From IMG/VR virus record IMGVR_UViG_3300017598_000405, positions 1 to 30,287 of that record: a DNA stretch of 30,287 nt. One strand, given 5' to 3'. The notes beneath the pieces were generated by a model. The model saw nothing but the letters and a program-made list of their open reading frames with translations, had not been told where the DNA came from and did no database searches. The stretch is from a virus. Shown here in pieces: positions 3,885 through 30,287 of the stretch. Position 1 is the first letter of the stretch; every line of letters starts with the position of its first letter. The translations under genes were made by a program, and so were the position numbers.

Positions 3885-3933
3885 ATTATAGTAGTCATCA
3901 GTGACCTAACCAGCAACGGATAAAAACATGACA
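3885..3933 (+). repeat. 49-bp leader repeat, copy 1
   Basis: Matches 4755-4803 at 46 of 49 positions, exactly 870 bases apart. It runs from ATTATAGTAGTCA through the segment AACCAGCAACGGATAAAAAC and into the start codon of the 277-aa gene. It holds the semi-palindrome at 3894-3905 and the translation start region. Confidence 0.85.
3894..3905. promoter_or_regulatory. Candidate operator GTCATCAGTGAC
   Basis: One of five sites fitting GTCANCAKTGAC, with GTCA/TGAC arms, 22 bases before the ATG at 3928. TATAGT just upstream could be a -10 box, which would place this site over a transcription start, but no good -35 is seen. The binding protein is unknown. Confidence 0.45.
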
Positions 3934-4761
3934 AAACTAAACAAGACAGATAAAAATACCCGAATAGAATACCTAATTGAAAAATTGTTCAACATGAAAG
4001 GTGGTTTCAGTAAAGGTATGCGTACAACACATGACGATGGTCAATGGATTGAAATAAATAGTGGTGGTGGTATAAAACGCAACTATGTTCCCGATCACCC
4101 TTGGTTGTATAACTATGGGCTAGGTTTGGATAATGATAAGAACGAAACATTATTTGATGCTGCTGGTGGTTGTCACATTAACGAACCTGCTAAAACAATA
4201 GGTGATGATTTTGAAGTAGTTATGTTTAAAGATTTCAGCATATCATGGTTTAAATACGTCAAATTCAACCCTTCTAAGTTGAGAGGTATTTCACCTATTT
4301 CAAAATGTACATTGTATGAAAAACACCAACGAACAATTCAATTGAATGGTGAAGTGGACTATGAGAAATGTATGGTGGGTGTTAATGGTTTCAAACAAAC
4401 ACCTATAATGGTTCAAGGTAAACTCCACGACACTAATGATAATATTGTATTGTCAGCATCATTCAAAGAAGAATTTTATAAAGTTGGTGTTTTTCACATG
4501 AAAATTACTAATGATGCAAATGGTCAAGGTATACGGTTAGCATGTGAACCTTGGGAAGTGATTGAACTAATGAAGTACAGAAACAACCCAATTACACTTA
4601 ACGGTAATAAGAAACCTGTACTTCATTGGGTTTCAAAATACATAAAAGGTGAGTTGAGGAAAACAAAAGTTGACGCTCACATTAGAGGTTTGGGTAATTT
4701 TAACATTGACGGGTTCACTATTGAGATAACCAAACCTGAAAAATATATCCACGAATTATAG
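3928..4761 (+). CDS. Hypothetical phage protein (277 aa)
   Basis: I do not recognise a family. The protein is soluble, mixed alpha/beta, with no membrane segment. Visible features: a basic N-terminus, a Gly-rich stretch (WIEINSGGGIKRNYVPDHP), scattered Trp, and a C-terminal region with GNKKPVLHWVSKYIKGELRK. ATG 3928 was chosen because it ends a conserved leader shared with the gene at 4798. Its own stop (TAG 4759-4761) lies inside the second copy of that leader. The shared leader suggests that it and the next gene are controlled together, probably as early genes. Confidence 0.65.
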   Translation: MTKLNKTDKNTRIEYLIEKLFNMKGGFSKGMRTTHDDGQWIEINSGGGIKRNYVPDHPWLYNYGLGLDNDKNETLFDAAGGCHINEPAKTIGDDFEVVMFKDFSISWFKYVKFNPSKLRGISPISKCTLYEKHQRTIQLNGEVDYEKCMVGVNGFKQTPIMVQGKLHDTNDNIVLSASFKEEFYKVGVFHMKITNDANGQGIRLACEPWEVIELMKYRNNPITLNGNKKPVLHWVSKYIKGELRKTKVDAHIRGLGNFNIDGFTIEITKPEKYIHEL

Positions 4762-4803
4762 TAGTCACCATTGACCCAACCAGCAACGGATAAAAACATG
4801 ACA
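4755..4803 (+). repeat. 49-bp leader repeat, copy 2
   Basis: Second copy of the leader at 3885-3933, with three substitutions, two of them in the central four bases of the semi-palindrome. The GTCA and TGAC arms and the whole segment next to the start codon are unchanged, suggesting that these parts are selected. Confidence 0.85.
4764..4775. promoter_or_regulatory. Candidate operator GTCACCATTGAC
   Basis: Fits GTCANCAKTGAC. It lies 22 bases before the ATG at 4798. A possible promoter, TTGAGA (4721-4726) with a 17-base spacer and TATATC (4744-4749), would start transcription just upstream of it. Confidence 0.45.
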
Positions 4804-5091
4804 CCACGTGTAGATGAAAGCAAGTTACCGAAACTAACTAAGAACCAGAAATATGAATTAGCTAAAAAAGAAGCTGGTTTAAAGAAAGTAACGGTGTGGT
4901 GTCCTGACTATGCTGTTGATGAATTGAAAGAATTAATGGGTGATATTTGTGATTTCCACAATGAAAAAGGTGAGTTTCACAAAAAATTATTCCCTTCTAT
5001 GTACCGTGAGTTCAGTACAGGTCGAGTTGGGAATAAATCACTTCGTGATGTTAAACTAACAGCAAGAAAAGCAACTAAGGTGGTTAAGTAA
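4798..5091 (+). CDS. Small protein, possibly ribbon-helix-helix-like
   Basis: 97 residues from ATG 4798; a TTG at 4771 is in frame but falls inside the repeated leader, whose other copy ends at an ATG in the same place. The N-terminus is very basic (KLPKLTKNQKYELAKKEAGL). It is followed by KKVTVWCPDYAVDELKELMG, a beta-strand then helix pattern like ribbon-helix-helix DNA-binding proteins, and then a basic C-terminus. A DNA-binding regulator is therefore possible, and such a protein could be the reader of the nearby semi-palindromes, but this is inference. The stop overlaps the start of the next small gene (TAATG at 5089-5093), so translation is probably coupled. Confidence 0.65.
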   Translation: MTPRVDESKLPKLTKNQKYELAKKEAGLKKVTVWCPDYAVDELKELMGDICDFHNEKGEFHKKLFPSMYREFSTGRVGNKSLRDVKLTARKATKVVK

Positions 5092-11618: not shown

Positions 11619-11642
11619 AAAGGGCGATTAAGCCCTTTTTTT
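11619..11642 (+). terminator. Intrinsic terminator of the early operon
   Basis: AAAGGGC (11619-11625), loop GATTAA, GCCCTTT (11632-11638), ending in a run of Ts to 11642, just after the polymerase stop. It separates the rightward early operon from the convergent late genes. No T-run follows on the minus strand, so it mainly works rightward. Confidence 0.85.
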
Positions 11643-11643
11643 A

Positions 11644-12027
11644 TTAGCCATTATATTCCTCAGTTTCATCTTCTAACACAATACCTTCATTGACTACGGG
11701 TTCAGGATTTTCAAAAATATCACTTAACACACCTCTACGTTGCTTAATGTCAACCATGAAATTCTCCTTGCGGTCACTCATTACGTCAGGACTCGTTATA
11801 AGCGCTTTTATATCCCACACTATAGGTTGTTCAATTGTGGTGTCAAAGTCTCGCATAGTAGCTATAACTTTACCCTGATGCGTTATCTTGAACCAGTCAT
11901 CGTAAATATGTAATTCAACACCTGAAAGTTTGTCTATAATGTGTTCGTCATCATTAACCACATACCTTTCCAAACCTTCTGCTAAACCTTTCTTGATAAA
12001 ATTTAATACACTTGCAATATTTAACAT
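11644..12027 (-). CDS. Hypothetical late protein (127 aa)
   Basis: 127 residues from ATG 12027 (MLNIASVLNFIKKGLAEGLE), with GGGGA upstream at good spacing. A longer form from ATG 12072 (142 aa) is possible, because that ATG overlaps the stop of the frame-shifted upstream product (TAATG), but the extra 15 codons would lie over a GC-rich hairpin. The protein is soluble, with a strand-rich middle (VELHIYDDWFKITHQGKVIA) and an acidic C-terminus (EGIVLEDETEEYNG). No family is recognised. It is the last gene of the late leftward run. Confidence 0.6.
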   Translation of the reverse strand: MLNIASVLNFIKKGLAEGLERYVVNDDEHIIDKLSGVELHIYDDWFKITHQGKVIATMRDFDTTIEQPIVWDIKALITSPDVMSDRKENFMVDIKQRRGVLSDIFENPEPVVNEGIVLEDETEEYNG

Positions 12028-12945: not shown

Positions 12946-13380
12946 TTATTTTTTATTAGCCATCATATCCCGACCATGCAAGACAATTTCTTTACCAAAA
13001 TAAAAGGTGATAATGGTTAGCATGATATACCCAAGCTGAAAAGCTGACGCCAACCCTATAATGCTCTCAATGGTTTTAGATACTTTTATACCAGTAAAGA
13101 ACCCGTACACAGCTAAAAATACACATATTTGAAACGTGAATATGAAATTTAAACCAAAAGCCATTGCACAATATCTACGCGCTAAATTTTGCCCTTGTGT
13201 TGCATTAGCCCATTTGATTTTAAGGTCTAACAGCTTTATTTTAGCATTGGATTTTTCTTCATCCGTGTGGAATGATTCATCAATAAATTCACCAATTCCA
13301 CCAACCATGTCTAGCGTTTTTTCTTGATTACCACCAAACAACGATCTAATTCCACTACCTACACTTGACAAAAAACTCAT
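12946..13380 (-). CDS. Holin-like protein (3TM holin family type)
   Basis: 144 residues, ATG 13380 after AAGGA. An amphipathic N-terminus (MSFLSSVGSGIRSLFGG) is followed by a charged region with FHTDEEKSNAKIKLLDLK, typical of Holin_3TMs proteins, then hydrophobic spans at about 71-97 (YCAMAFGLNFIFTFQICVFL and following residues) and 106-126 (SIIGLASAFQLGYIMLTIIT). The charged tail is HGRDMMANKK. Such proteins form the inner-membrane lesion that lets lysin out. No endolysin is visible nearby, so its partner must lie outside the window. The neighbours DUF1353 and a coiled-coil membrane protein complete a lysis-like cassette. Confidence 0.7.
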   Translation of the reverse strand: MSFLSSVGSGIRSLFGGNQEKTLDMVGGIGEFIDESFHTDEEKSNAKIKLLDLKIKWANATQGQNLARRYCAMAFGLNFIFTFQICVFLAVYGFFTGIKVSKTIESIIGLASAFQLGYIMLTIITFYFGKEIVLHGRDMMANKK

Positions 13381-17669: not shown

Positions 17670-20600
17670 CTATTCTTCGGTGACAACCAATGATAATGAT
17701 TGTGAAGTTACATAGCTTGTTGTCAAATGTCTTGAATAACTCGTACATTTAACTTGATAAACCAGTGTAGCAACATCAGTAGCGTTGTCTAAGTTGGTTG
17801 ATGAAGCAATGGTTATTTCTTCAAATTCACTACCACCCAAACATACATTGCTACCTGTAAACACACCTGAAACAACATCAGTAAATCCACCACCGTTAAT
17901 ACTTTTCTGAATAGTCCAACCGAATGAAGGGTTAGCGGCAGTAGGACAAGAACCGTAACTTCTATTACCCTCTAAGTTATAATTCAACTTGAGTGATTTA
18001 GGTTTACCGATACTACTAAATGAAGCGACTGTCACAACAACAGCGCCAACAGTGTATTTACTTAACCCTGATGTAGCACCTGAATTAGTGATCGCACCAC
18101 TTCTCAATTCACCACCGAAATAACCACCACCAACTGCGTAAAGGTAAAAGTCACCTCTTGATTCATTAACAAGTGAGTAGTCAACTTGACCATTCACAAT
18201 AACACCTGTACCAAACCAATCAATGAATTGGTTACTTGAACCGAACCCATTAGCTGATGTAATTCTAACAGCACCCGTACCAATGTATTCTATCTTAGGT
18301 GATTGGATTAATGTATTGGCTTTGAACCTGTCACCACTGATTGAACCAGTAGCAATCAAATCACCGTTGACAAGTAAAGCAGGAGCATCCCACCCATTAG
18401 GTAGGGTTTTACATTCCTTGCTACTAATGACTGAACCAGTAGCGTTTCTGTACGTTAAAATGTCACCAACAACAGGTAAGAAACCTAAATGAGTAAGCAT
18501 GTCAGCGTTGGCTGTTGCGTTGGACGGGAATACACCGTTTCTAAGAACAAGTCCATACATACCAGCACCGCGAGTACCATCTGCTCCATCAGTACCATCT
18601 GCTCCATCAGTACCATCTGCTCCATCAGTACCATCTGCTCCATCTGCTCCTTTTATTAAAGACCATTTGTAATCAGTGTAGTCGTTTGAATCTGCAAGTG
18701 TAAAATCTACGTACTGACCAAGGTGTGACTTACCTGCATATACAGTTGTACTGAACCCACTAGAACCTGATTCATTGTTAGCATAGGCTAAATGTAAATA
18801 TGAGGTTTGACCATTTGTACCGTCAACACCAGCAACACCTTCTGCACCATTTGCACCTTTTGCTAGTTGCCATTTCCACAACGGACTACCACCAGCAGCA
18901 TCCGCAAGCGTGTTGTCTACATAAGTACCAATATACTCTTTACCAACAGGTGATTGACTAAAACCACCACCATCAGCGTCATCAGCATAAGCCAAATGAA
19001 AATGGCTAGATGTACCATCAGTACCATCAGTACCATCAGTACCATCAGCACCATCAAACGCTCGTATATCAGCTTCACTACTTACGCTAGTACCGTCACC
19101 TAGCGTAAGGTTGGCTTTAATATTCATGACATGGTTGATATTATCCAGCGTCAACAATGGAATGAAATCACCACTGTCATTTATAACACCCACTCTGAAA
19201 TTACTAGAACCAATGTCAAACGTATCTGTTGAACCGTCATTGCTGTTAACAAAACCAGAGATGCGACCATTAACGTCAGATAACATGCCACCACGTGCGA
19301 TCAAGTTGCCTTCATTATCTTCAAACACTTGGCGAATATCATTAAGACTTGCTGACTTATCACCTTTCATTACTCGTAAGTTACGGATGAATTCAGATAA
19401 CACACCTTCAACCCATGAATTACCAACAACAGCAACACAAGCAACCGCATCAACTTCACTGGTTATATCACCATTAGCATTCACACAATAACCGATTGAG
19501 GTACGAGTATATTCTTGTGCAGTAGCTAATGCTTTAGTATCACCTTCACCCATTTCAACTTGTAGCTTATCAAGTGCTGTTGCAGTTGCTTGACTATTGT
19601 TAGCAAAAGCAGTATTCAAAGTTGTAGTTTGTGCCTTGGTTAAACCATGTTGTGCTGTTAATTGCTCAAGTGATGTTGCTGTTGATTCTTGCTCTGTTGC
19701 TTGCGCTGTTAATTTCTGTTCAGCACTGGCAATTTTCAGAGTTGATTCGTCAATTTGATTATTAGCAAGCATGAGATTGAAAGCGTCAATAACACCCTTC
19801 ACACCCTCAGATTTAATGTCTAATTTAACACCAGCAATGCTTGTGATTTGATTAGTAATCTCACCATTTAGAGCATCTATATCTTGTCGTGCTGTTGTAA
19901 GTTGTTCATCAACACCACCTTCGGCAGCGTTATAAGCAATAACCAAATCAGTGACATTCGATTCAGCACCATCAACCCATGAGAACGCACCGTTAGCTTT
20001 AGCCAATGTGTCATTCGTATCAAATTCTTCAAGTGTTGTTGATATACTATAAGTAGTGTTAAAAGTATCAATCAACGTGTCTACGTTTGATTCTGTTTGA
20101 TAGCCAAGTCCATTCACCCAAGCAGTAGTTGCATAAGCAGACATTCTACCTGTCTTAGCATCCATGTCTTGCTCAATGGTTGACGTTCTTGTTACGATGT
20201 CATTAAAAGCTTGATCGTTAGCACCACGTTTCCCAACTTCAATGTAGTCAATATCACAGTCACCAAGATTAGCGACAAGCTTAATAATTGTACCCGTGTA
20301 ACCATTAGTACCCGTTGCATCAACCTGAACAACTTCCCACTCGTTTTCAATGGTTGGTTCAGGAACAGGTAATACAATTGTGTCATTAAGTGTCAATGTA
20401 CCAACCCAAGTACCAGCAACAGCCTTTCTAACACGTATACGGTACATAGGGTTATCAGTGGCAACATAACTAATAACAGGTGAAGTAATAACACTCTGTG
20501 TACTTACAATGAAACCTTGAGCATTCCAACTTGATTGCCCTGTGAAATTCTCAACATCACTGTTGAACTGCCAAGAATAAGCAGGAACTAAAGCATTAAT

Positions 20601-22883
20601 TGCACCAGCTACAATTGCATCAACTTCGGTAAATGAAGCTTTTTGTGTGATACGTCCAGCTTGAACCACAAGCTCAGATTCAGCGAGTGTAAGGCGAGTT
20701 TCACTATAAGTAATTCTTTCAGCTTCAAGTGCAATTCGTGCTTCATTTTTATCAATAGAAACTCGCGCGTCACTTAGTTGAATTTCACCACCTTTAATTC
20801 TGATCTCATAATTTTGTCTGAAATTAGCATAGGCTGATGTAGCATCAAAAACAGCTTTAGATAAATCGGTTTGACCGCGAGATATCAAGCCCGTCTTAGT
20901 GTTTATTTCTTCAAGCTGTAAATGAATATTATTAGGTTCAGTTCTATCAAGCTGGTCAATTAATTCATTTACTTCTGTTGCTAATCTTGATTTATCAATC
21001 TCACCGATAACTGCGAGTAAATGCGTGTTGTCATTTGTGGTAGCAACCGTTTTACTCGTCCAACCTGACATACCAGCAACGTTAATAGTACGCGCCCATA
21101 AGTAATAAGTTGTTTCAGGTGCTAACCCTGCAAGCGTGAACGCACCACTCTTACCTTTGTTATCAGCAGTATTAAAGTCATTGGTAGTGTTGATTAGTAA
21201 TTCAAATACAACACCAACGTAACTGCCTGTGATTTCAGGTGTGATTTCAAGTTCAAAGTTACTGGCAACAACATTTAAAATTGGTGCTTGAGGTTCATCT
21301 ATGGTAAAGCTTAATGTTGCATCAGCACTTCTATAACCAAGACCATTAATCGCCTTAATTTTTATAACTAAGTTACCTTGAGCAACATTGTTTAACTTGT
21401 ATGACTTAGCACTGACGGTTTGATAGTTATCACCGTTAACACTAACCAAGAACGAATTGTGTGGTGAACTCCACGTAACAACAGCTTGTGCCGTAGCATC
21501 ATCAGGAAAGGTAACACTTAGATTAGTAGGTGCTGAAACTTCCCAATAATTAGCAACACTCGTATCAGGTATTACTTGCTCTGGTTTAGTATTCCACGGA
21601 TAAATGCTAGCTTGATATTCAAGGAATTCCCAATCAATAACACCGCTAGAACGTGTTTTTTTACCAACGATGATAAATGGTTTATTGACCATCCCGAAAC
21701 CTTCATCATTGATATTCATCAGCATACCAACACCTAAGTTTTTCAACCTAGAAGTAGTGGGTACTTTAACCTTCAATGCGTTTCGGCTACGCTTTAATAT
21801 TATTTCAGCTTTCTGAACAGCTTCATAAATATTATCTACTGTATCAAGTGTGAAATTTTTCTCTAATTTCTGATTGAAATCTTCGGCTAAGTAGGTTTGA
21901 TATTCAGCATTGTCAGTAGGGTAAGTAACACTTGTCACCTTACCTTTTTGCGACTTGTCAGCAAATCTAACCGTGACTTTATTGAACCTGTCTTTTATTT
22001 CGTTATCTTCAACAATTAAGTCACCCATACGGTCAGTAGATAACAAGCTATCTGTAGCTGTTCTTTCACGTTCAATGTAAAAGTGAAACTGACCTTTGAT
22101 ATAGGGTAATGAACCACGACAACCTTTTAATATTTTATTGGTGTTATCTAGTAACGTATCGTTGCCGTTTAAACGAGCATTACAACTCATAAGAGGTTGT
22201 GCGTTGCCACCGTTATAAGGTGATACAGTTTGACCACTAAAGGTTTTTTCAAGCTGCATTCGTTCTTCATTTACTCTAATGGTGTTTAAATCACGACCAT
22301 AAGCAGGGTTAGTTAAATAATCATTCAGAACGTCAGCATAGTTTGTACTGTAAACTTTAGCACCACCGCCAATCGGGGTAACTTTAATACCTTTTAAATC
22401 AGCAGTAATTTGTGGAAAGTGGTTCATCTTTTCAGGGTCATACTCAAGACGTATTATCGAGTAAGCATAACCTTTACCGTCAAACTGTAACTGAGGATGG
22501 TAATCAGTTGCAGCAAAGGAAACACTCTCACCGTCTTTGAAATCCCAATGATGCGCCCACCGACTTGTTGTGCTGTTCTCAGCATCATATGCGGTAGAGT
22601 TGATAGGGAGTTCGTCAAGATAAATTTGACCGATTTCTTCTATTTGACCAACTGACCAAATAACTTGTAAATAGATGAGATCATTAGGTACATCGTCATT
22701 ATCATTAGGGTCTGCTACAACTGACCTAACTAAAATACCCTCTGCGCTTTTAACTTCACCATAAACCATCGGTTCAAAAGTTGGTTCACCCAAGGTTACA
22801 TTGACACCCTGAACTTGTTGTTTCGGCATGTCTGGTATCAACCAACCAAATGCAAAATCGAATATTTGAGTAAGGCTAGGCAT
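17670..22883 (-). CDS. J-like tail tip (central fibre) protein
   Basis: 1737 residues, the largest gene. The N-terminal 420 residues form the tail-tip hub (VQGVNVTLGEPTFEPMVYGE, then GCRGSLPYIKGQFHFYIERE) as in lambda J relatives. Two fibronectin-III-like domains follow (about 450-620). Long helical and DUF1983-type regions come next (SAYATTAWVNGLGYQTESNV). Then two tandem HLAYA domains are joined by collagen-like Gly-x-y stretches (GTDGTDGTDG and GADGTDGADGTDG), and a C-terminal beta domain ends SLSLVVTEE. The protein sits at the tail end, contacts the cell surface and probably triggers DNA release. Collagen-like stretches suggest trimers. Its length exceeds lambda J (1132 aa) because of the added modules. 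Confidence 0.85.
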   Translation of the reverse strand: MPSLTQIFDFAFGWLIPDMPKQQVQGVNVTLGEPTFEPMVYGEVKSAEGILVRSVVADPNDNDDVPNDLIYLQVIWSVGQIEEIGQIYLDELPINSTAYDAENSTTSRWAHHWDFKDGESVSFAATDYHPQLQFDGKGYAYSIIRLEYDPEKMNHFPQITADLKGIKVTPIGGGAKVYSTNYADVLNDYLTNPAYGRDLNTIRVNEERMQLEKTFSGQTVSPYNGGNAQPLMSCNARLNGNDTLLDNTNKILKGCRGSLPYIKGQFHFYIERERTATDSLLSTDRMGDLIVEDNEIKDRFNKVTVRFADKSQKGKVTSVTYPTDNAEYQTYLAEDFNQKLEKNFTLDTVDNIYEAVQKAEIILKRSRNALKVKVPTTSRLKNLGVGMLMNINDEGFGMVNKPFIIVGKKTRSSGVIDWEFLEYQASIYPWNTKPEQVIPDTSVANYWEVSAPTNLSVTFPDDATAQAVVTWSSPHNSFLVSVNGDNYQTVSAKSYKLNNVAQGNLVIKIKAINGLGYRSADATLSFTIDEPQAPILNVVASNFELEITPEITGSYVGVVFELLINTTNDFNTADNKGKSGAFTLAGLAPETTYYLWARTINVAGMSGWTSKTVATTNDNTHLLAVIGEIDKSRLATEVNELIDQLDRTEPNNIHLQLEEINTKTGLISRGQTDLSKAVFDATSAYANFRQNYEIRIKGGEIQLSDARVSIDKNEARIALEAERITYSETRLTLAESELVVQAGRITQKASFTEVDAIVAGAINALVPAYSWQFNSDVENFTGQSSWNAQGFIVSTQSVITSPVISYVATDNPMYRIRVRKAVAGTWVGTLTLNDTIVLPVPEPTIENEWEVVQVDATGTNGYTGTIIKLVANLGDCDIDYIEVGKRGANDQAFNDIVTRTSTIEQDMDAKTGRMSAYATTAWVNGLGYQTESNVDTLIDTFNTTYSISTTLEEFDTNDTLAKANGAFSWVDGAESNVTDLVIAYNAAEGGVDEQLTTARQDIDALNGEITNQITSIAGVKLDIKSEGVKGVIDAFNLMLANNQIDESTLKIASAEQKLTAQATEQESTATSLEQLTAQHGLTKAQTTTLNTAFANNSQATATALDKLQVEMGEGDTKALATAQEYTRTSIGYCVNANGDITSEVDAVACVAVVGNSWVEGVLSEFIRNLRVMKGDKSASLNDIRQVFEDNEGNLIARGGMLSDVNGRISGFVNSNDGSTDTFDIGSSNFRVGVINDSGDFIPLLTLDNINHVMNIKANLTLGDGTSVSSEADIRAFDGADGTDGTDGTDGTSSHFHLAYADDADGGGFSQSPVGKEYIGTYVDNTLADAAGGSPLWKWQLAKGANGAEGVAGVDGTNGQTSYLHLAYANNESGSSGFSTTVYAGKSHLGQYVDFTLADSNDYTDYKWSLIKGADGADGTDGADGTDGADGTDGADGTRGAGMYGLVLRNGVFPSNATANADMLTHLGFLPVVGDILTYRNATGSVISSKECKTLPNGWDAPALLVNGDLIATGSISGDRFKANTLIQSPKIEYIGTGAVRITSANGFGSSNQFIDWFGTGVIVNGQVDYSLVNESRGDFYLYAVGGGYFGGELRSGAITNSGATSGLSKYTVGAVVVTVASFSSIGKPKSLKLNYNLEGNRSYGSCPTAANPSFGWTIQKSINGGGFTDVVSGVFTGSNVCLGGSEFEEITIASSTNLDNATDVATLVYQVKCTSYSRHLTTSYVTSQSLSLVVTEE
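18574..18650 (-). repeat. 18-bp tandem repeat encoding collagen-like Gly-x-Asp triplets
   Basis: Three exact copies of gtaccatctgctccatca at 18574-18627 plus partial copies to 18650, encoding alternating Gly-Ala-Asp and Gly-Thr-Asp triplets in the tail tip gene. A likely site of length variation. Confidence 0.9.
19012..19047 (-). repeat. 9-bp tandem repeat encoding Gly-Thr-Asp
   Basis: Four exact copies of gtaccatca, followed by a variant, in the tail tip gene. It forms the first collagen-like stretch, ahead of the two HLAYA domains. Confidence 0.9.
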
Positions 22884-22907
22884 TTATTGTTATTCTCGTT
22901 TGTAGGT

Positions 22908-23435
22908 TTATAAAATATCGTCTGGTGTTTTAGGAACAGTGTGTTGACGATTACTAGGTATCACAGGTGCATTCTTACCCCAATACTTCACTTCACTAGC
23001 GTTTATGTAGTCAACAAATTGCAAGTTTAAATTAACCATGTTAACCATATCAAACGCGGCAAAAATAGATGAAACAGTCAAACTAATAGTGGAGGTGTTC
23101 AATTTACCAGAGTATGTGTATTTATTGCAATCACCATCAAGCCAAATTTCAGTATCAATGATGTTTTCGTCATCATCAAGTGTTAATCGTTCAACTAAAC
23201 ACCTTCGATTCTTATAAGCACCGTTTGCAAAAGCACTCACTAATGTTTGGTCTACTGCGCTCATAATTAACACAAAATCATTTGCTGATGGTGCGCTTTT
23301 CTGAACAATAGGTGAATCGACTTTAACTTTACCAGCTATGAAGTTTTTACCATCGTAAGTTTTGTTACGATGAAAATCAGTCAGGTAAATAGGTACATCC
23401 AAAGAAATGCTTACCGCATAAATATAATTTGACAT
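22908..23435 (-). CDS. Tail tip / baseplate hub protein (DUF2163-like placement)
   Basis: 175 residues. ATG 23435 directly follows the stop of the gene before it. Strand-rich sequence with YAVSISLDVPIYLTDFHRNK, a Cys-containing middle (RRCLVERLTLDDDENIIDTE, then WLDGDCNKY) and VSSIFAAFDMVNMVNLNLQF. It stands between the DUF2460-like protein and the J-like protein, where lambda-type tails have L/K/I genes and other siphophages have DUF2163 or BR0599-type hub proteins. The pattern fits a hub subunit; the family name is from position and general resemblance, not a firm motif. Confidence 0.6.
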   Translation of the reverse strand: MSNYIYAVSISLDVPIYLTDFHRNKTYDGKNFIAGKVKVDSPIVQKSAPSANDFVLIMSAVDQTLVSAFANGAYKNRRCLVERLTLDDDENIIDTEIWLDGDCNKYTYSGKLNTSTISLTVSSIFAAFDMVNMVNLNLQFVDYINASEVKYWGKNAPVIPSNRQHTVPKTPDDIL

Positions 23436-24023
23436 TTAAGCCTCAATAGCTCTTATTAAAACGGAAGTTAAACCTTTATTTGCGTCCAAACTTAGCGTTG
23501 AATCATCTTTAGTCATACGTAAGGTGAACACACCTTCACCAACATCTTCATTGATTGTAACGTTAGCAAAAAGTCTTGGGGTAATTTTAAGTGTAGCTTT
23601 ACCAGTATTATCGGAGTCCGTTGACTCTTTTATCTTATAAGCCTTAGTGTGATTAGCAAAGGTGATAAAGTCACCTGCTCTCAAAGCACCTACTGTGTTA
23701 AAAGGGAGTCCACCAACGTTTATACTATCTAAACCAGCAACAACACTAGAACTCACTTTGAAAGAGTTGTCAGCGCTCATGAAACGTAAAGGACATTTCA
23801 AAGTGAACGTGCCAAACCGACCACCAAGACCATCAATGAAAGCGCCAAGTTCACGTATATCATCAGACCAGAATTTCTTTGTTTCAAATTCCACGCGCCA
23901 CTTGTGAGGGTTGCCCCGTTTAGCAACTTCGGTGTTCATACCGTATTCAGTAACTTCCGTAAAAGTTTTACTGGTTATATTACACTTTGAAGCGCTTGAA
24001 AATTTAACTGGAAATGTTGACAT
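23436..24023 (-). CDS. Minor tail protein (DUF2460/gpM-like)
   Basis: 195 residues, ATG 24023 with AAAGGT upstream. HKWRVEFETKKFWSDDIREL followed by GAFIDGLGGRFGTFTLKCP resembles the conserved centre of DUF2460-type and gpM-type distal tail proteins, where a strand pair precedes a Gly-Arg turn. Place after the tape-measure gene fits. Its ribosome-binding site lies in one of two direct repeats that flank the homing-endonuclease remnant, so the insertion left its translation signal intact. Confidence 0.65.
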   Translation of the reverse strand: MSTFPVKFSSASKCNITSKTFTEVTEYGMNTEVAKRGNPHKWRVEFETKKFWSDDIRELGAFIDGLGGRFGTFTLKCPLRFMSADNSFKVSSSVVAGLDSINVGGLPFNTVGALRAGDFITFANHTKAYKIKESTDSDNTGKATLKITPRLFANVTINEDVGEGVFTLRMTKDDSTLSLDANKGLTSVLIRAIEA

Positions 24024-24028
24024 AATTT

Positions 24029-24042
24029 ACCTTTAAGGTCTA
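24029..24042. repeat. 14-bp direct repeat, left copy
   Basis: ACCTTTAAGGTCTA, identical to 24951-24964. It carries the ribosome-binding site of the gene at 24023 and the TAG stop of the endonuclease remnant. Confidence 0.85.
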
Positions 24043-24943
24043 CTTAGATGGTTCAAACCAATAATTTGGGAATTTTGAACTCTTACATCTGTTTATAATT
24101 GTTGCTTTAGTGCAATCATCCAACTCAGCAGCAGATGTTGATGAGTCAAACTTACCGTTAGGTGTATGATAATATCCTATGAAACCAGATGATGAAACTC
24201 CAACCCTTGATTTCAGTTTAATTAATCGCTCTTGGTTGCTGTTGTCAACTGATTCAAACCAATAATCTTTAAAGTTATCACTGTGCAACCTATACTTAAT
24301 ACCGTTGCTAGTGCAACCTATACTTTTAGCAGCTAAGTTTAAAGATTCAAATTTACCGTTAGGGGTATGATAATATCCTATGAAATATTTAGAACTAGCG
24401 CCTGATTGTGCTGTTTTAATTTTTAACACTACATCGTCTTTTATAGCATTAACTGCTATTGACTCAAACCAGTAATTCTGAAAATTAGAACTTTTACATC
24501 TGTTCCTAATTGTTTTAACAGTGCAACCAACACCTTCGGACGCTAAAACCAGTGATTCAAATTTACCGAAAGGTGTGTGGTAATAACCGTTAAAATTAGG
24601 AGACAAACAACCTTTCTTACCAAACCAGAAACTCTTATCACCTGTAAATTTGCCAATGTTGGATTCACTAATTTTATGTTTATGTTCTGGTGAAAGTTTT
24701 CTACCTTTGTTAGCTTTCAACAACCCAACAGTTGTTTTATGTGACATTGTTCTACCAATGTTGGACTCACTAATGTTACGTTTGTGTTCTGGTGAAAACT
24801 TTCTACCTTTGTTAGCTTTGCTCATTTTAACACGTGTTTCACGCGAATGTGTCTCACCAAACATAGCAAGGTGCTGTTTTCTTAGTCCAACCACGCATCA
24901 CACGAGAACTTATAATTTGATCATACAACCTCTCGTAATTCAT
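24040..24943 (-). pseudogene. Decayed HNH/NUMOD homing endonuclease
   Basis: Two pieces in different frames. An N-terminal piece starts at ATG 24943 with AGGTG upstream (MNYERLYDQIISSRVMRGWT, then KKTAPCYVW) and stops at 24854; this is the usual opening of phage HNH homing endonucleases, just before where the HHI catalytic motif would be. The larger piece, 24894-24040 from a GTG (284 aa), begins near the end of where an HNH domain would finish. It holds two NUMOD3-like units (KMSKANKGRKFSPEHKRNIS and LLKANKGRKLSPEHKHKISE) and three 60-residue repeats starting GYYHTPNGKFES and ending NYWFES, probably DNA-binding. The catalytic HNH core is missing, so it cannot cut DNA by this motif. It sits between two tail genes. 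Confidence 0.75.
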
Positions 24944-24950
24944 CACCAAC

Positions 24951-24964
24951 ACCTTTAAGGTCTA
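24951..24964. repeat. 14-bp direct repeat, right copy
   Basis: ACCTTTAAGGTCTA at the end of the tape-measure gene, including its stop codon. Removing the DNA between the two copies would join this stop to the ribosome-binding site and ATG of the next tail gene with normal spacing. Confidence 0.85.
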
Positions 24965-27699
24965 TTCATTGCGTACTTAATATGGTTTACAATGCGGTCA
25001 GCATTATCTTCATACCACCTTTCAGTAGCATTATAACCTGACGAATCAGGTAACGTCAAATTAATACTTGTATCCCCACCTGAACCACCTTCTTTTCTAC
25101 GTTTTAAGTCATCTTTCAAATCTTTGTTAAGCTTTTCAGTCATTACACGTTCACCACCTTGTAAAAGATAGCTACCTGTTCTTTCAACGGTACTGATACC
25201 GTCATGGAACTGTGGCATTTGTTGACTTTTAATATTCCTAACATTAACTAAACCAGCAGCAGTAACTAAACCAGCAGCAGCAAAGTTAAAAGGTGGTGGT
25301 AATGAAGCTAAAGCATTGTTTGCAGCAGCATAAGTGTTCATCACAGATTTAGCTATGTTAGCAGCTTTACTGATAGCAAATAGCTTTTTAGACCCACTAG
25401 CACCCAATGTACTTAATGCTGACCATGTATCTTTACTCGCTTGCATTCTGCCTTGTTTTTCAAGTTCAGCTTGTTTGATATTAAACTTACTTGTTACACC
25501 TTCACGTTGTTTTCTTTTTTCATCAGCACTAACTTCTGACGCTTCAATAGCATCTAACGATTCTTGTTTTACACGTAGTAGTTCGGCTTGCTTATTTTCT
25601 TGCTCACCAAGATTGACACCAAAGAAATCTTGGAAACCACCTGCACCATTTTCAACACCAGCAAAACTTTCATCAACTTTACCACTGAATTGTTGAGTAG
25701 CACGTTTAGCTGATTCTTCTTGTGCTTTTAATGTTTTAGAAGCTTCTGCTTGACTAAAAGCATCAACGTCAGCATCGTAATTTGAAGCAAGTTTGAATAG
25801 ATGATTAACCATGAATTCTTCACGTGAAGAATAACCTAAATCAGCCCACTCACTTTTTTTGAATTCAGCATTTTTAAATGCTTCAACATCAGCTTCATAC
25901 TTAGCTGTAATTTTGGCAACTTTACCACCACCACCGTCAATGGTTGCTATTAATTTAGCACGTTTTCTAGCTGCTGATGCAGCAACTTCTAATGCTCTAC
26001 GCTCACGATTTTCAGCAGCAACAATTCTATCGTTTTCACGCTTATCAATTTTATCAAGTTTTAACGCTAGACCTTTTTTAACATTTACAATTGTATCCGC
26101 ATATTCGTTTTCAACATCTATTTTATCATTGTAAGCATCTTCAACAAATTTATCATGGTGTAAAGTTAACTCTTTATTTTTATCAGCATGTTCTTGTTTA
26201 GCTTTATTTACTTGTACATTGATGTCGTATTCATTTTTACCAGCATGTCTTATACGTCTAATTTTTTCACCGTAAAACATTTCATTTACTTTGAGTGATT
26301 GATCAAACAAAGCTTGTTCTTCTTTTATAGCTTTATCACTAGCTATTGTTTGTTTTTCATACGCTTCGGTTAATGCTTTTGTTTTTTCCTGATGCACTCT
26401 TTCAGCTTTTGCTTTTTCTTTTTCAAAACCTGAAATTAAAGATATTCTACGTTGATCGTATGATTTGATAATTTCTTTATTAGCGTTTAAAGTTTGGTCT
26501 AATTCGCCAGCAAGTGTTTTAGCAAGCCCTTTTGCTTGTTGTATTCTTTCTACCGATTGTATTCTTTTTTTCTGGTTGATAAACTCCTGAAATTCAATAA
26601 CAGCTTCGTTATATCGACCTTCTGCAACCTTGATATTCTCGTCTTGTTTTGCAGTTGATTTACCTTCTTTTTCAAGCTGGTTTCGATACTTCATTGCTGC
26701 TAGTAATGTACGGTATCTTAACTGTTCTCTGGCTTGTAACTTATCAACGTCATCAAGTTCTATTTGTTTACTGTCATGAATCTTACTGCCTATTTGAAGC
26801 ATTTCATCAGTAATCATTACAAGACCAGTAATAGAGTCTCTTGCAAGTCTTATAAGTTTCGTTTTACCAAGTGATTCTAAAAAGTTATCCCAAGACTGAC
26901 CAGCAGAATCAACAGCAGCTTCTAACTGTGCGGCTTCAATGTTAGCTAAACCACCGAACTGATTTCGCATTTCAGCTAATACAATGTTTTGAGCGCCTAC
27001 GGTATCACCCATTTCCCACATTGACGCTATCATGTCTTTTTGGGATTTTGTAAATTGAATACCTTTACGAGACAATGCTCCAAGGTTTGCAATTGGGTCG
27101 TTTAAAGCTTTACCAAACGCAACCACACCTTCACGCAAATTACCACCAAATACAACTTTAGCATCAACAGCTAATTTAATGGTTTCTTTAAATGTTTCAC
27201 CTTGCACTTTACGAAAGGTTAATAATGCGTTGATTGCTTCTGAGGTACTAGCAACATCACCTAATGTATTTCTAGCTGTGCTTTGTGCTAAATCTTCTAA
27301 ATCGTTGCGAGTTAATCTAGCGGCAAAACCAGTGGCTTTAAGCAACCCTTGAAATTTGTTTTGTCGTTTTTCAAATTGCTCTAATGAAGATATTAATTTA
27401 CCAACGGCAATACCTACACCTGCAATACCTACACCAAGTGCAACATTACCTAAACCAAATCGGGTGATACCTGTACCGATAGCTGACAATCGACCAGAAA
27501 TAGGGTCTAACTGACCATTGAAGATAGCAACGTTGTTAGCTGCTCTTGTGAATTGTTGACCTAACTCTTTGACTTCTTTCTTGGATTTTTTGGTAGACTT
27601 TCGGGTACGCTCTAATTTTCGAGCAGCTTGGTCTAATGATTTTTCAAATGATTTAGTGTCACCAGCAATACCAATGACAATCTTAGTATCTTTACCCAC
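24955..27699 (-). CDS. Tail length tape measure protein
   Basis: 914 residues. GTG 27699 overlaps the end of the T chaperone frame and has AAGGAA upstream. N-terminus MGKDTKIVIGIAGDTKSFEK followed by Lys-rich helix is typical of tape measures. A hydrophobic segment at about 80-105 (LGVGIAGVGIAVGKLISSLE) and another near the C-terminus (NFAAAGLVTAAGLVNVRNIK) fit membrane-active parts. The long middle (about 330-700) is charged coiled coil. The end HDGISTVERTGSYLLQGGER is the conserved C-terminal motif region. It scaffolds tail-tube assembly and sets its length; at about 0.15 nm per residue the tail would be roughly 135-140 nm. Confidence 0.9.
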   Translation of the reverse strand: MGKDTKIVIGIAGDTKSFEKSLDQAARKLERTRKSTKKSKKEVKELGQQFTRAANNVAIFNGQLDPISGRLSAIGTGITRFGLGNVALGVGIAGVGIAVGKLISSLEQFEKRQNKFQGLLKATGFAARLTRNDLEDLAQSTARNTLGDVASTSEAINALLTFRKVQGETFKETIKLAVDAKVVFGGNLREGVVAFGKALNDPIANLGALSRKGIQFTKSQKDMIASMWEMGDTVGAQNIVLAEMRNQFGGLANIEAAQLEAAVDSAGQSWDNFLESLGKTKLIRLARDSITGLVMITDEMLQIGSKIHDSKQIELDDVDKLQAREQLRYRTLLAAMKYRNQLEKEGKSTAKQDENIKVAEGRYNEAVIEFQEFINQKKRIQSVERIQQAKGLAKTLAGELDQTLNANKEIIKSYDQRRISLISGFEKEKAKAERVHQEKTKALTEAYEKQTIASDKAIKEEQALFDQSLKVNEMFYGEKIRRIRHAGKNEYDINVQVNKAKQEHADKNKELTLHHDKFVEDAYNDKIDVENEYADTIVNVKKGLALKLDKIDKRENDRIVAAENRERRALEVAASAARKRAKLIATIDGGGGKVAKITAKYEADVEAFKNAEFKKSEWADLGYSSREEFMVNHLFKLASNYDADVDAFSQAEASKTLKAQEESAKRATQQFSGKVDESFAGVENGAGGFQDFFGVNLGEQENKQAELLRVKQESLDAIEASEVSADEKRKQREGVTSKFNIKQAELEKQGRMQASKDTWSALSTLGASGSKKLFAISKAANIAKSVMNTYAAANNALASLPPPFNFAAAGLVTAAGLVNVRNIKSQQMPQFHDGISTVERTGSYLLQGGERVMTEKLNKDLKDDLKRRKEGGSGGDTSINLTLPDSSGYNATERWYEDNADRIVNHIKYAMNRP

Positions 27700-27979
27700 C
27701 GCTACGATTCCTTAAAATTGCTTTCATTTCTTGCCAAGTTTGATCAGGTTTATCGGCAGTTTCTTTATTTGGATAAAAGTCAGATGGTTTTACTGGTTCT
27801 TTCGGGTTGTATAACCCATTAACAAGATATGTGCAAACTTCGGCATGTTGATACATTTCCAATTCGTATCCCCACGGTTCTTCCATATAATGATCAAACC
27901 ATTTATAAAAAACGCTTGATGGCATTTCATCAAGCATTTCATCAACATCAAGACGATTAAACTTTATAGCTAGTCTGTT
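27692..27979 (-). CDS. T-like tail assembly chaperone (made by -1 frameshift)
   Basis: Frame -1 relative to the G-like gene and open for about 95 codons. NRLAIKFNRLDVDEMLDEMP then FDHYMEEPWGYELEMYQHAE is the DUF4035-type pattern found in the T part of lambda-type G-T fusions. The conserved RLA segment begins before the first ATG (27937), so that ATG cannot be the true start. As in lambda, a small share of ribosomes should shift from G into this frame; both products help the tape measure and tail tube to assemble and are absent from virions. Slippage could occur at AAAGGAA (28006-28000) or TTTGGAA (27985-27979). Confidence 0.75.
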   Translation of the reverse strand, partial: NRLAIKFNRLDVDEMLDEMPSSVFYKWFDHYMEEPWGYELEMYQHAEVCTYLVNGLYNPKEPVKPSDFYPNKETADKPDQTWQEMKAILRNRSGG

Positions 27980-28359
27980 TCCAAACTTTCGTCCTGCAAT
28001 TCCTTTTCTTCGAACTTTAGTCCAGCAGCATCCTCTGCTGAATGTATTAACTTGTTAACATCGTTCATGTTTGTAACTTCATCACAAAGCATTCTATAAA
28101 TGTTATTAGGTGTTTGAGTAGGCTGACCATCAACAATAAAATGGTCAACTAAACAAGCAGCAACAAGCCGAAACCCTACTTTCGTATTGATTCCAGATTT
28201 GAAATAAATGGATGAACCATCTTTTACAAGACCATGTTCACGTTCCATTATGTCGTAGTATTCACACATAGCTAATGCTGATGGTTCAGTAAGGATGAAG
28301 TTCTCACCCTGTACTTCAACCTCAACAGTTTTACGCTTGCGGTTTTTAAACAAACCCAT
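27970..28359 (-). CDS. G-like tail assembly chaperone
   Basis: 129 residues. ATG 28359 overlaps the tail tube stop (TAATG). N-terminus FKNRKRKTVEVEVQGENFIL then EPSALAMCEYYDIMEREHG, a middle with VGFRLVAACLVDHF and an acidic C-terminus (EEKELQDESLETD) fit the G family between the tail tube and tape-measure genes. The last codons overlap the -1 frame that encodes the T part. Confidence 0.75.
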   Translation of the reverse strand: MGLFKNRKRKTVEVEVQGENFILTEPSALAMCEYYDIMEREHGLVKDGSSIYFKSGINTKVGFRLVAACLVDHFIVDGQPTQTPNNIYRMLCDEVTNMNDVNKLIHSAEDAAGLKFEEKELQDESLETD

Positions 28360-28772
28360 TATGCAGCAGCCAATACAGGCTTACCAGAAATCTTGATTTT
28401 GAAAGTTTGAGTGATGGTTTCATTTTTAGGTACTTCCATACCTGCACCTGTAACCACACCAACATAAGTATATGTTGAATTATCAGGGAATTTAATTTGA
28501 CCTTTCACCGTACCATCACCAGCGTCAAAAGCAGCCATTAACGCCACTTGACCAGCATCAGCAATAGCCCACTTTAAAGTTAGTGATAATTCACCAGCAT
28601 CAATCATACCAGCAACAAATTCTTTATAAATTTCAGCACTGTCTAAATAACTGTCTTCCGATGTGTCACGTGACATTTCAGGGAAACCTAATTCTTTAAC
28701 CTTTACTGTATTCACAGCGTATGAAACACCGTCATCACCCGATAAAGCATGTGTAGTAGTTGCACCAATCAT
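28359..28772 (-). CDS. Major tail tube protein
   Basis: 137 residues, ATG 28772. The pattern GFPEMSRDTSEDSYLDSAEI, then EFVAGMIDAGELSLTLKWAI, IKFPDNSTYTYVGVVTGAG and FKIKISGKPVL is that of the gpV/Hcp-like tail tube fold of lambda-type phages. Hexameric rings of this protein would form the tail tube. It lies just before the G/T chaperone genes and shares a TAATG overlap with G. Confidence 0.85.
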   Translation of the reverse strand: MIGATTTHALSGDDGVSYAVNTVKVKELGFPEMSRDTSEDSYLDSAEIYKEFVAGMIDAGELSLTLKWAIADAGQVALMAAFDAGDGTVKGQIKFPDNSTYTYVGVVTGAGMEVPKNETITQTFKIKISGKPVLAAA

Positions 28773-28776
28773 TTTG

Positions 28777-29175
28777 TTATACCTCGTATTTAACGTTAAA
28801 AATTAAAATCTTGACACCTGCGTCTGATTCGTTATCTAAGATATAATCAAAAGATTCAGGTTTAATGTATTCGACTAATCCGTCAAGGGTTGAACCAATA
28901 GGAAGTAAGTCGTAAATGTCTTGAGAATGAGTGTCTAACAAATTCTCGACTTCTTTCGCATTATCATGTATTGCAACACGTACTTCAAGTGAAATTTCTT
29001 CTGCACCATCTTCAAATAATCCGACACCTGTTGTAACGACAACAGCAGGTAAGTCTTTAGCACTATCACCAATATTATTCTTACGGGTACTGTAAGCTTT
29101 ATACTTAGCACCACCAGCAAAATTTTCAATAATTTCAGCAATTTTTTCACGGATAGGTTGTTCTTTTAGTATCAT
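28777..29175 (-). CDS. Tail terminator (gpU-like)
   Basis: 132 residues. ATG 29175 overlaps the Z-like stop (ATGA). ILKEQPIREKIAEIIENFAG, then LPAVVVTTGVGLFEDGAEEI and SLEVRVAIHDN followed by an alpha/beta C-terminal half (SFDYILDNESDAGVKILIFN) fit the tail terminator fold (gpU, minor capsid-to-tail ring). It caps the tail tube before joining to the head. Family membership is by pattern and gene order. Confidence 0.75.
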   Translation of the reverse strand: MILKEQPIREKIAEIIENFAGGAKYKAYSTRKNNIGDSAKDLPAVVVTTGVGLFEDGAEEISLEVRVAIHDNAKEVENLLDTHSQDIYDLLPIGSTLDGLVEYIKPESFDYILDNESDAGVKILIFNVKYEV

Positions 29176-29975
29176 TTTAATAGCCCTAGTTTCTTGAGTC
29201 TTTTATGTACTTCTTTAGTCTGCATTTCTTTAACTACCGTGTTTACATTATTCGTTCCTGAACCAGCAGCAGAGATTAGAGCTTGTCTAACTTTCAACTT
29301 TTCAATTTTCACAGCTTTCACAGGGTAAGGGTTTTTTTGACCAACACTTTTACGTTGGAAAAGTAGGTAACGCTTACCACCAAGTTGTGTCGCTTTAGCA
29401 CCAAGTTTTTCCATATAATGTTTATTGATAGCTTTACTACTTGCACGATATGAACCGTTTTCAAGATAAGCATTGTTATATGTACGACCTGCAATCTTAA
29501 CTTTACCGCCTCTACGACCACCTATTCTGGCACGTGAAACCTTTGATGACATGTTAGGTCTACGCTTACTACCAACGCGTCTTTTGCGTGATTTAAACCC
29601 ATACATTGCTTCTGCTTCTTTATCTTTAGCAAGTAGATCGACAACATTAATGGCATTACCACGAATCATGATTGACGCATATGGTCTAGCACTTCGACCT
29701 TTACCTGCTGAAACTTTCACACCTTGTACAAAGGTTCGATAGTAAATATGTTCTTTTGGGATAAGTAGTATATTAGCCGCGCGACCAATTACACTTGTTG
29801 ATGTTATATTTTTTGGAGTGATACCACTCACACGACCGTAAGCGATTTTATCAGCAGCTTTGTTGACACCTGCTTTACTAGCAAGCGTTACTGCTTTTTG
29901 GATATCGTGTTTTAATAATTCAGCTACGTCACCAAATCCTTCTAGCCCAGTAACATCAAAGCCACCGAAAGCCAT
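29172..29975 (-). CDS. Minor tail protein Z-like
   Basis: 267 residues, ATG 29975. N-terminus GFGDVAELLKHDIQKAVTLA, then a very basic, Gly/Arg-rich region (GFKSRKRRVGSKRRPNMSSK) that could contact DNA, then a conserved GGKRYLLFQRKSVGQKNPYP segment leading into VKAVKIEKLKVRQALISAA. This is the usual layout of Z-type tail completion proteins, which sit at the tail's head end. Position between FII-like and U-like genes agrees. Confidence 0.75.
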   Translation of the reverse strand: MAFGGFDVTGLEGFGDVAELLKHDIQKAVTLASKAGVNKAADKIAYGRVSGITPKNITSTSVIGRAANILLIPKEHIYYRTFVQGVKVSAGKGRSARPYASIMIRGNAINVVDLLAKDKEAEAMYGFKSRKRRVGSKRRPNMSSKVSRARIGGRRGGKVKIAGRTYNNAYLENGSYRASSKAINKHYMEKLGAKATQLGGKRYLLFQRKSVGQKNPYPVKAVKIEKLKVRQALISAAGSGTNNVNTVVKEMQTKEVHKRLKKLGLLK

Positions 29976-29977
29976 TG

Positions 29978-30287
29978 TTAACGTAGTTCCATCATTACTT
30001 GTGTACCTATTCTTTCGGTAAGGTGGATAGTAAATGTTCTATCAGTAGCAATCAGGTATAGTTGACTACGACCATTCTCAATTGCTACTGGTAAATCACT
30101 TTCAGGAATTTCAAAGGTGCGATAACCAGTACCAACACCTTCAAATTCATCAGTCTTTTCGTCAAAGATACCTCTGCAATCTTCACCTTTAGCTGCTTTG
30201 CCAGATATTGATTCGATTGTAACTATTCAAACGGATGCAGGTGCTTAATAACACTTCTAACGGTGGTCACTGGTGACGGTTGACCAC
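29978..30287 (-). pseudogene. FII-like head-tail joining protein, broken by a one-base frame change
   Basis: An 82-codon frame (30226-29978) reads VTIESISGKAAKGEDCRGIF, then FEGVGTGYRTFEIPESDLPV and LIATDRTFTIH, the pattern of lambda FII-type head-tail joining proteins. It has no ATG, GTG or TTG near its beginning. Just upstream, another frame, open from the right window edge to TAG 30225-30223, ends SVIKHLHPFE. Reading across with one extra A at GAATAG would join them as HPFEIVTIES. Either one base was lost by mutation or in the assembly, or two genes abut and the second uses an unusual start. The gene may begin beyond the edge. Confidence 0.55.
30266..30277. promoter_or_regulatory. GTCACTGGTGAC semi-palindrome near the right edge
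   Basis: The reverse complement GTCACCAGTGAC fits GTCANCAKTGAC. It lies inside a second inverted repeat, GTGGTCA (30263-30269) with TGACCAC (30281-30287). It falls in coding sequence, so it may be chance. Confidence 0.3.

Follow-up and report, generated by a model that had tools for sequence, protein, structure and literature searches.

On its minus strand, the window, a 30,287-base virus record analyzed at its full length, encodes a tail module of siphovirus type. According to Pfam and PHROGs profiles, the genes on that strand run in the order tail terminator, major tail protein, chaperone-like genes, tape measure, Dit, tail protein, and J-like tail protein, and about 0.9 kb separates the tape measure gene (24955-27699) from Dit (23436-24023). 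The features in and around this interval, all on the minus strand, are as follows.

24955..27699, minus strand: tape measure gene, 914 aa, GTG start as listed (Pfam TMP_2, 1e-9; open reading frame)
24951..24964, minus strand: repeat copy 1, TAGACCTTAAAGGT, the tape measure end with its TAA, then the AAAGGT ribosome-binding site (RBS) of the insert
24854..24943, minus strand: N-terminal remnant of an HNH homing endonuclease, ATG 24943-24941, 29 codons, TGA 24856-24854 (tblastn)
24856..24866, minus strand: approximate deletion junction, where the N-terminal frame stops and the gene resumes in another frame without the HNH core (reading frames)
24040..24894, minus strand: listed 284-codon open frame, with its TAG (24042-24040) in repeat copy 2 (NUMOD3, phrog_314)
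24466..24588, minus strand: C-terminal repeat 1 (GYYHTPFGKFES...NYWF) (protein repeat comparison; DNA repeats D1-D5)
24256..24378, minus strand: C-terminal repeat 2, with weak I-TevI DNA-binding and NUMOD1 matches below the Pfam cut-off
24055..24177, minus strand: C-terminal repeat 3
24029..24042, minus strand: repeat copy 2, TAGACCTTAAAGGT, the TAG of the insert, then the AAAGGT RBS of Dit
23436..24023, minus strand: Dit gene, ATG 24023-24021 (phrog_1302, 3e-22; Pfam pb9 B-domain, 2.7e-4, below cut-off)

The initial annotation had called the gene downstream of the insert simply the next tail gene, and the phrog_1302 match now identifies it as the distal tail protein. It had also described a 14-bp repeat at both ends of the insert, and we find TAGACCTTAAAGGT exactly at 24964-24951 and 24042-24029 on the minus strand, with the copies 922 bases apart and no other exact occurrence in the window. 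The signals within the repeat can be placed more precisely than before: the tape measure end, AGA CCT TAA, falls within copy 1, with the TAA at 24957-24955, and the TAG that closes the frame of the insert falls within copy 2. AAAGGT stands 7 nt before the ATG of the insert at 24943 in copy 1 and 5 nt before the Dit ATG at 24023 in copy 2. Each portion of the repeat is used on one side or the other, and both copies hold stop or start signals of the neighboring genes. The earlier proposal that the displaced translation signal had been duplicated, sparing the tail genes, agrees with these positions, as both tail genes keep their stop or RBS, and the same structure can be seen directly in the phages AsFcp_2 and UP19/PSD2002 discussed below. 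We also sought an RBS-hiding hairpin by RNA folding at both start sites and found no sign of one, since the z-scores there (+1.12 and +1.15) are unremarkable.

The insert is a free-standing HNH (MobE-like) homing endonuclease gene that has decayed, in line with the remnant first proposed. Its native ATG at 24943 opens 29 codons (MNYERLYDQIISSRVMRGWTKKTAPCYVW), and 28-29 N-terminal codons survive in one frame; by tblastn, this remnant matches Vibrio phage PVA23 at 66.7% (6e-7) and the phi-pp2 "MobE" at 60.7% (2e-4). The 284-codon frame matches NUMOD3 in three stretches (Pfam, 3.9e-9, 36.7 bits against a cut-off of 20.4) and phrog_314, "homing endonuclease" (PHROGs, 1.8e-12). In intact relatives, the same N-terminus runs directly into the HNH core (HHI..P), as in RGWTKESAPCYTERHHILPK of PVA23 and in five others that we aligned. 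The loss of this core, also claimed initially, is borne out in the window, where it is absent between CYV and FGETH and Pfam gives no HNH match. Because the catalytic core is absent, the insert is a remnant rather than an active member of the endonuclease family. NUMOD3 and the three C-terminal repeats continue in a frame other than that of the N-terminal remnant, and the native part of the 284-codon frame starts near 24861 (FGETHSRETR...). The 284 codons of DNA-binding repeats reported earlier are indeed open, but as a native length they are about 10 codons too many: given that the native frame of the N-terminal remnant starts at ATG 24943, the first ~10 codons (24894-24865) are remnant DNA read out of frame. 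At its end, the 29-codon frame shares bases with the ATG at 24864-24862, where re-initiation could occur. The insert is placed between two open genes, outside any intron or intein, and an Rfam search of the element gave no intron at or below E 1, its sole match being a chance-level sRNA. A DNA transposon with a target-site duplication was considered and rejected: the endonuclease remnant is the only encoded protein, with no transposase, a Tc3 helix match is sub-threshold (Pfam, 19.8 bits against a cut-off of 31.5), and inverted repeats were detected, none of them at the two ends of the element.

To place the repeat among endonuclease genes generally, 80 IMG/VR loci were surveyed, which came to 65 distinct genes after removal of 2 without flank and 13 near-duplicates, and to 70 with five phage genes. 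Exact flanking repeats in these 70 genes track the mismatched-pair background, mostly 5-8 bp, and reach at least 11 bp in only 2 of the 70, so the 14-bp repeat of the window is unusual rather than typical for endonuclease genes. A 13-bp repeat at one locus (L070) is A-rich and was left out of the count. Two surveyed loci carry a downstream-type duplication, in which the first ~13-15 endonuclease codons copy those of the adjacent downstream gene, with that gene restarting immediately behind the endonuclease: in L127, the endonuclease (1663-2484) begins MAVPSSRQEFKDYCA and the next gene MAVPTSRQEFKDYV, and in L141, the endonuclease (1668-2366) begins MATITNRNDFKAFC and the next gene MAATPITNRNDFKQYC. 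Both score above all mismatched protein pairs; at the DNA level, L127 is above all mismatched pairs and L141 above all but 0.018%.

A close relative lacking the insert would show the ancestral junction. A near search of 50,697 phage records found no close relatives of 20000-30287, IMG/VR scans with the tape measure, Dit, J-like tail protein, and helicase returned nothing or distant loci only, and bacterial genomes yielded 5 distant Dit loci and no close relative. The copy-2 junction, used as a 22-mer, had no match in a collection from which the window's own record was possibly left out. Across these searches, with no close relative found, we saw neither an uninserted relative with a mismatching junction nor the repeat without the gene. 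In all 15 of the distant loci that have a Dit match, Dit lies directly after the tape measure; these loci come from 47 others compared (48 including the window's own locus) and contain near-copies (L026/L038, L012/L013, L040/L041, and L022/L024/L027/L043); their tape measure/Dit spacing ranges from short overlaps to ~60 nt. Removing one repeat and the insert from the window leaves TAA, 9 nt, and ATG, which is the spacing of L026 and L038. The compact rebuilt junction proposed earlier agrees with these two loci in its spacing; the single-copy junction itself was not seen, as no close empty relative was found.

Filled and empty versions of one site can be compared in other phages. In the Aeromonas phage AsFcp_2, an intact HNH endonuclease gene separates uvsW from uvsW.1, and no such gene is present there in PX29 or AsFcp_4 (the AsFcp_2 and AsFcp_4 records carry an UNVERIFIED mark). 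Aligning AsFcp_2 with these two gives blocks with a 16-bp overlap at the empty site. The overlap, AAAGAGGTGATGATTG, consists of the last uvsW codons with the RBS and start of uvsW.1 and is found on both sides of the gene; the 5' copy has diverged and the 3' copy matches the empty phage, with a right flank nearly identical to the empty phages. The endonuclease ends in INKEVMIENT-stop, compared to RVKEVMIENT-stop for the UvsW of PX29. We also observed that the final ~160-240 bp of uvsW beside the endonuclease (locus L056, 2260-2500) have diverged from PX29 and AsFcp_4, with the rest nearly identical, in the manner of a co-conversion tract. In the E. coli phages UP19 and PSD2002, of another genus than AsFcp_2, comparison with QL01 gives a 13-bp overlap at the same uvsW boundary, and the endonuclease ends in MKQVDL-stop, with codons of the empty QL01 uvsW end. 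When endonuclease and upstream C-termini were compared, the scores were matched by 0.2% of mismatched pairs for AsFcp_2, 3.3% for UP19, and 1.4% for PSD2002, and because of the latter two values this test is by itself weak for UP19 and PSD2002.

The junction duplication is absent in Bp7 compared with QL01 and fDHCT2, in KIT01 (a GIY-YIG-like gene, judged by eye) compared with QL01, and in phi-pp2 (versus KVP40), D527 (versus K566), and CZ01 (versus KVP40), where DNA has been replaced. With these last three counted as one, the duplication is present in 2 of 5 events, a number that may overcount the events, as Bp7 and UP19/PSD2002 have a similar 5' joint and are possibly not independent. Such insertions can duplicate the junction, without this being a rule. 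Two further pairs were set aside: Aeh1 differs from Ah1 by another, non-endonuclease insert (5-bp overlap), and the Seg-like gene of PVA23 is too divergent from KVP40 to read. Within PVA23 (locus L053), an HNH N-terminus lies in frame at 2501-2728, upstream of the annotated start at 2729, and its homing endonuclease is therefore probably annotated too short.

We think it probable that an endonuclease insertion duplicated the tape measure/Dit boundary and that the gene later decayed by internal deletion. A free-standing HNH endonuclease gene, MobE-like and NUMOD3-bearing, would have entered this boundary, at which the tape measure stop would have overlapped the RBS of the next gene (TAA/AAAGG). 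Because stop and RBS overlap, an insertion sparing both genes would need a boundary copy at both of its ends, with copy 1 finishing the tape measure and starting the endonuclease and copy 2 ending the endonuclease and starting Dit. The duplication would most likely have come from recombinational joining at the boundary, in which either the insert brought a boundary copy or repair copied the boundary, and selection would then have favored a joint that harmed neither gene. The endonuclease would subsequently have lost its HNH core to an internal deletion that also shifted the frame. Duplication of a single ancestral junction can be seen in the other phages, and we infer it here; the joining mechanism and the selective filter we likewise infer. 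The joint may have formed by repair synthesis, by an incoming boundary copy, or by recombination at boundary sequences. Given that in AsFcp_2 the left flank has diverged over ~160-240 bp and the right is nearly identical, its flanks fit donor DNA that arrived with the gene at the left and re-joined within the boundary sequence at the right.

Chance is a poor explanation of the 14-bp repeat. Two AAAGGT Shine-Dalgarno sites under the same constraint could resemble each other, with the other 8 bp matching by coincidence; AAAGGT-like sites are expected ahead of genes, and in a looser, wider, gapped score, 2.35% of mismatched pairs equal or exceed the window's 14. However, when 5' and 3' flanks of 70 other endonuclease genes were paired with the wrong partner, 0 of 4,830 pairs had an exact match of at least 14 (2 had 13), and among 20,000 pairs of 60-nt stretches picked at random from the window, 1 shared any 14-mer. 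Moreover, TAGACCTT upstream carries no constraint for Dit and is absent from the other listed start regions of the window. If up to three mismatches are allowed, the window has 12 occurrences of the motif where 3.35 would be expected, and only two of them are exact. We therefore regard coincidence as very improbable. It is scarcely credible that an error in sequencing or metagenomic assembly produced the insert: the window is a single contig, but the GC content of the insert (0.35) is near that of its neighbors (0.36 and 0.39), the homing-endonuclease homology lies within the insert, and the neighboring genes are open.

The duplication could alternatively be only apparent, if the donor gene already had the same stop/RBS boundary and short homology, not site duplication, placed it here. 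In PMC3029335, short repeated boundary sequences are proposed as a cause of phage mosaicism, and in AsFcp_2 the 5' copy has diverged, as have the final ~160-240 bp of uvsW, as if donor uvsW DNA had traveled with the endonuclease. Given that TAGACCTTAAAGGT has just two exact copies in the window and does not recur as a boundary motif of the genome, we consider such a placement unlikely here. The initial annotation also raised the possibility that the protein survives in a DNA-binding role, which our analysis does not support. As a repressor, immunity factor, or marker-exclusion factor, the remnant could be translated from the listed frame of 284 codons or after re-initiation at ATG 24864; NUMOD3 and three repeats lie within ~270 codons that are still open after the core loss, and intact T4 intron endonucleases are reported to bind operators (PMC2988022). 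Yet the listed GTG has no evident RBS ahead of it, the AAAGGT serves a 29-codon frame that stops, an open frame by itself also fits recent decay, and the predicted structure of the 284-codon frame is unusable (pLDDT 31.8), which makes retention as a working protein quite improbable in our view. Values of dN/dS among the internal repeats (~0.06, 0.17, and 0.58, with one dS far above saturation) reflect the older history of the repeats and are uninformative for the time after HNH loss, and our searches found no relative close enough to gauge selection over that time.

Several known systems resemble the decayed insertion that we favor. With MobE-type HNH endonucleases (phi-pp2 MobE, PVA23, AsFcp_2), the window shares the N-terminus, the placement between conserved genes, and, in part of them, NUMOD-type modules, whereas it differs from the MobE-type of T4-like phages in lacking the HNH core, in its shifted frame, in its siphovirus-type phage, and in its tape measure/Dit site. 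AsFcp_2 and UP19/PSD2002 have, like the window, the junction of uvsW/uvsW.1 on both sides (upstream last codons, downstream RBS and start); unlike in the window, their endonucleases are intact, the copies have diverged, and empty relatives are known. The closest published case found, described in parts of PMC3029335, is Island3 gene 68 of mycobacteriophages, the end of which repeats the end of upstream gene 67 (60 bp in common), with one copy in a relative without the gene; its authors also allow for a deletion in the relative. It is likewise a single inserted gene repeating the end of its upstream neighbor, although not an endonuclease. In the Xanthomonas oryzae phages Xp10, OP1, and Xop411, degenerate HNH genes with AP2-type domains and no conserved flanking sequences are reported in sections of PMC2248197; the window has likewise lost the HNH domain and kept part of a DNA-binding domain, but differs from them in domain type and flanks. 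The main review (PMC2988022) treats promoters, overlaps, and split genes, no word beginning with "duplicat" occurs in its main text, and the available portion of PMC1524935 holds nothing on boundary duplication. By title and the start of abstracts, with subscription journals mostly outside the scope, no boundary-duplication rule for homing endonucleases was found in the literature.

As a homing endonuclease gene in decay, the element is of an ordinary kind; the footprint that it left is uncommon and informative. The harmless landing of free-standing homing endonuclease genes between tight or overlapping phage genes is poorly explained so far, and boundary duplication offers a simple, testable rule, wherein an insert at a stop/RBS overlap survives only if it carries or generates a second copy. 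As the repeats mark the exact empty site, they also provide a footprint for finding old insertions, ORFan genes included, and intact relatives with the same boundary duplication help explain the harmless invasion of crowded genomes. This meaning of the footprint is backed by two empty/filled comparisons, both in other phages and none from the window's own relatives.

Apart from tandem arrays, the longest exact direct repeat of the window is AACCAGCAACGGATAAAAACATGACA, located at 3908-3933 and 4778-4803 (26 exact), and its similarity extends to 3885-3933 and 4755-4803 (46/49 bp, with a period of 870 bp). Two genes, 3928-4761 and 4798-5091, each have this repeat as their upstream region and start; the former (277 aa) is an ORFan for which PHROGs, Pfam, and phage records gave no match, and the latter matches phrog_11804 (7e-14). 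It looks like the same junction-duplication process around an ORFan, although it may instead be a duplicated promoter-like region. We tentatively raise the possibility that boundary duplication has repeatedly let single genes, and homing endonucleases in particular, into compact phage operons with no harm to translation. Such a route would have an upstream type (last codons, stop, and RBS: the window, AsFcp_2, and UP19/PSD2002) and a downstream type (start region and first codons: L127 and L141), and the window would hold two events, the second at the ORFan 3928-4761. Other repeats in the window include tandem 9-bp units of the GCAGGTGCA and CTGCTGGAA types at 1-220 and 2703-2820 and a 15-bp exact repeat, TTTTTTATTAGCCAT, at 11637-11651 and 12949-12963, the 3' ends of two minus-strand frames.
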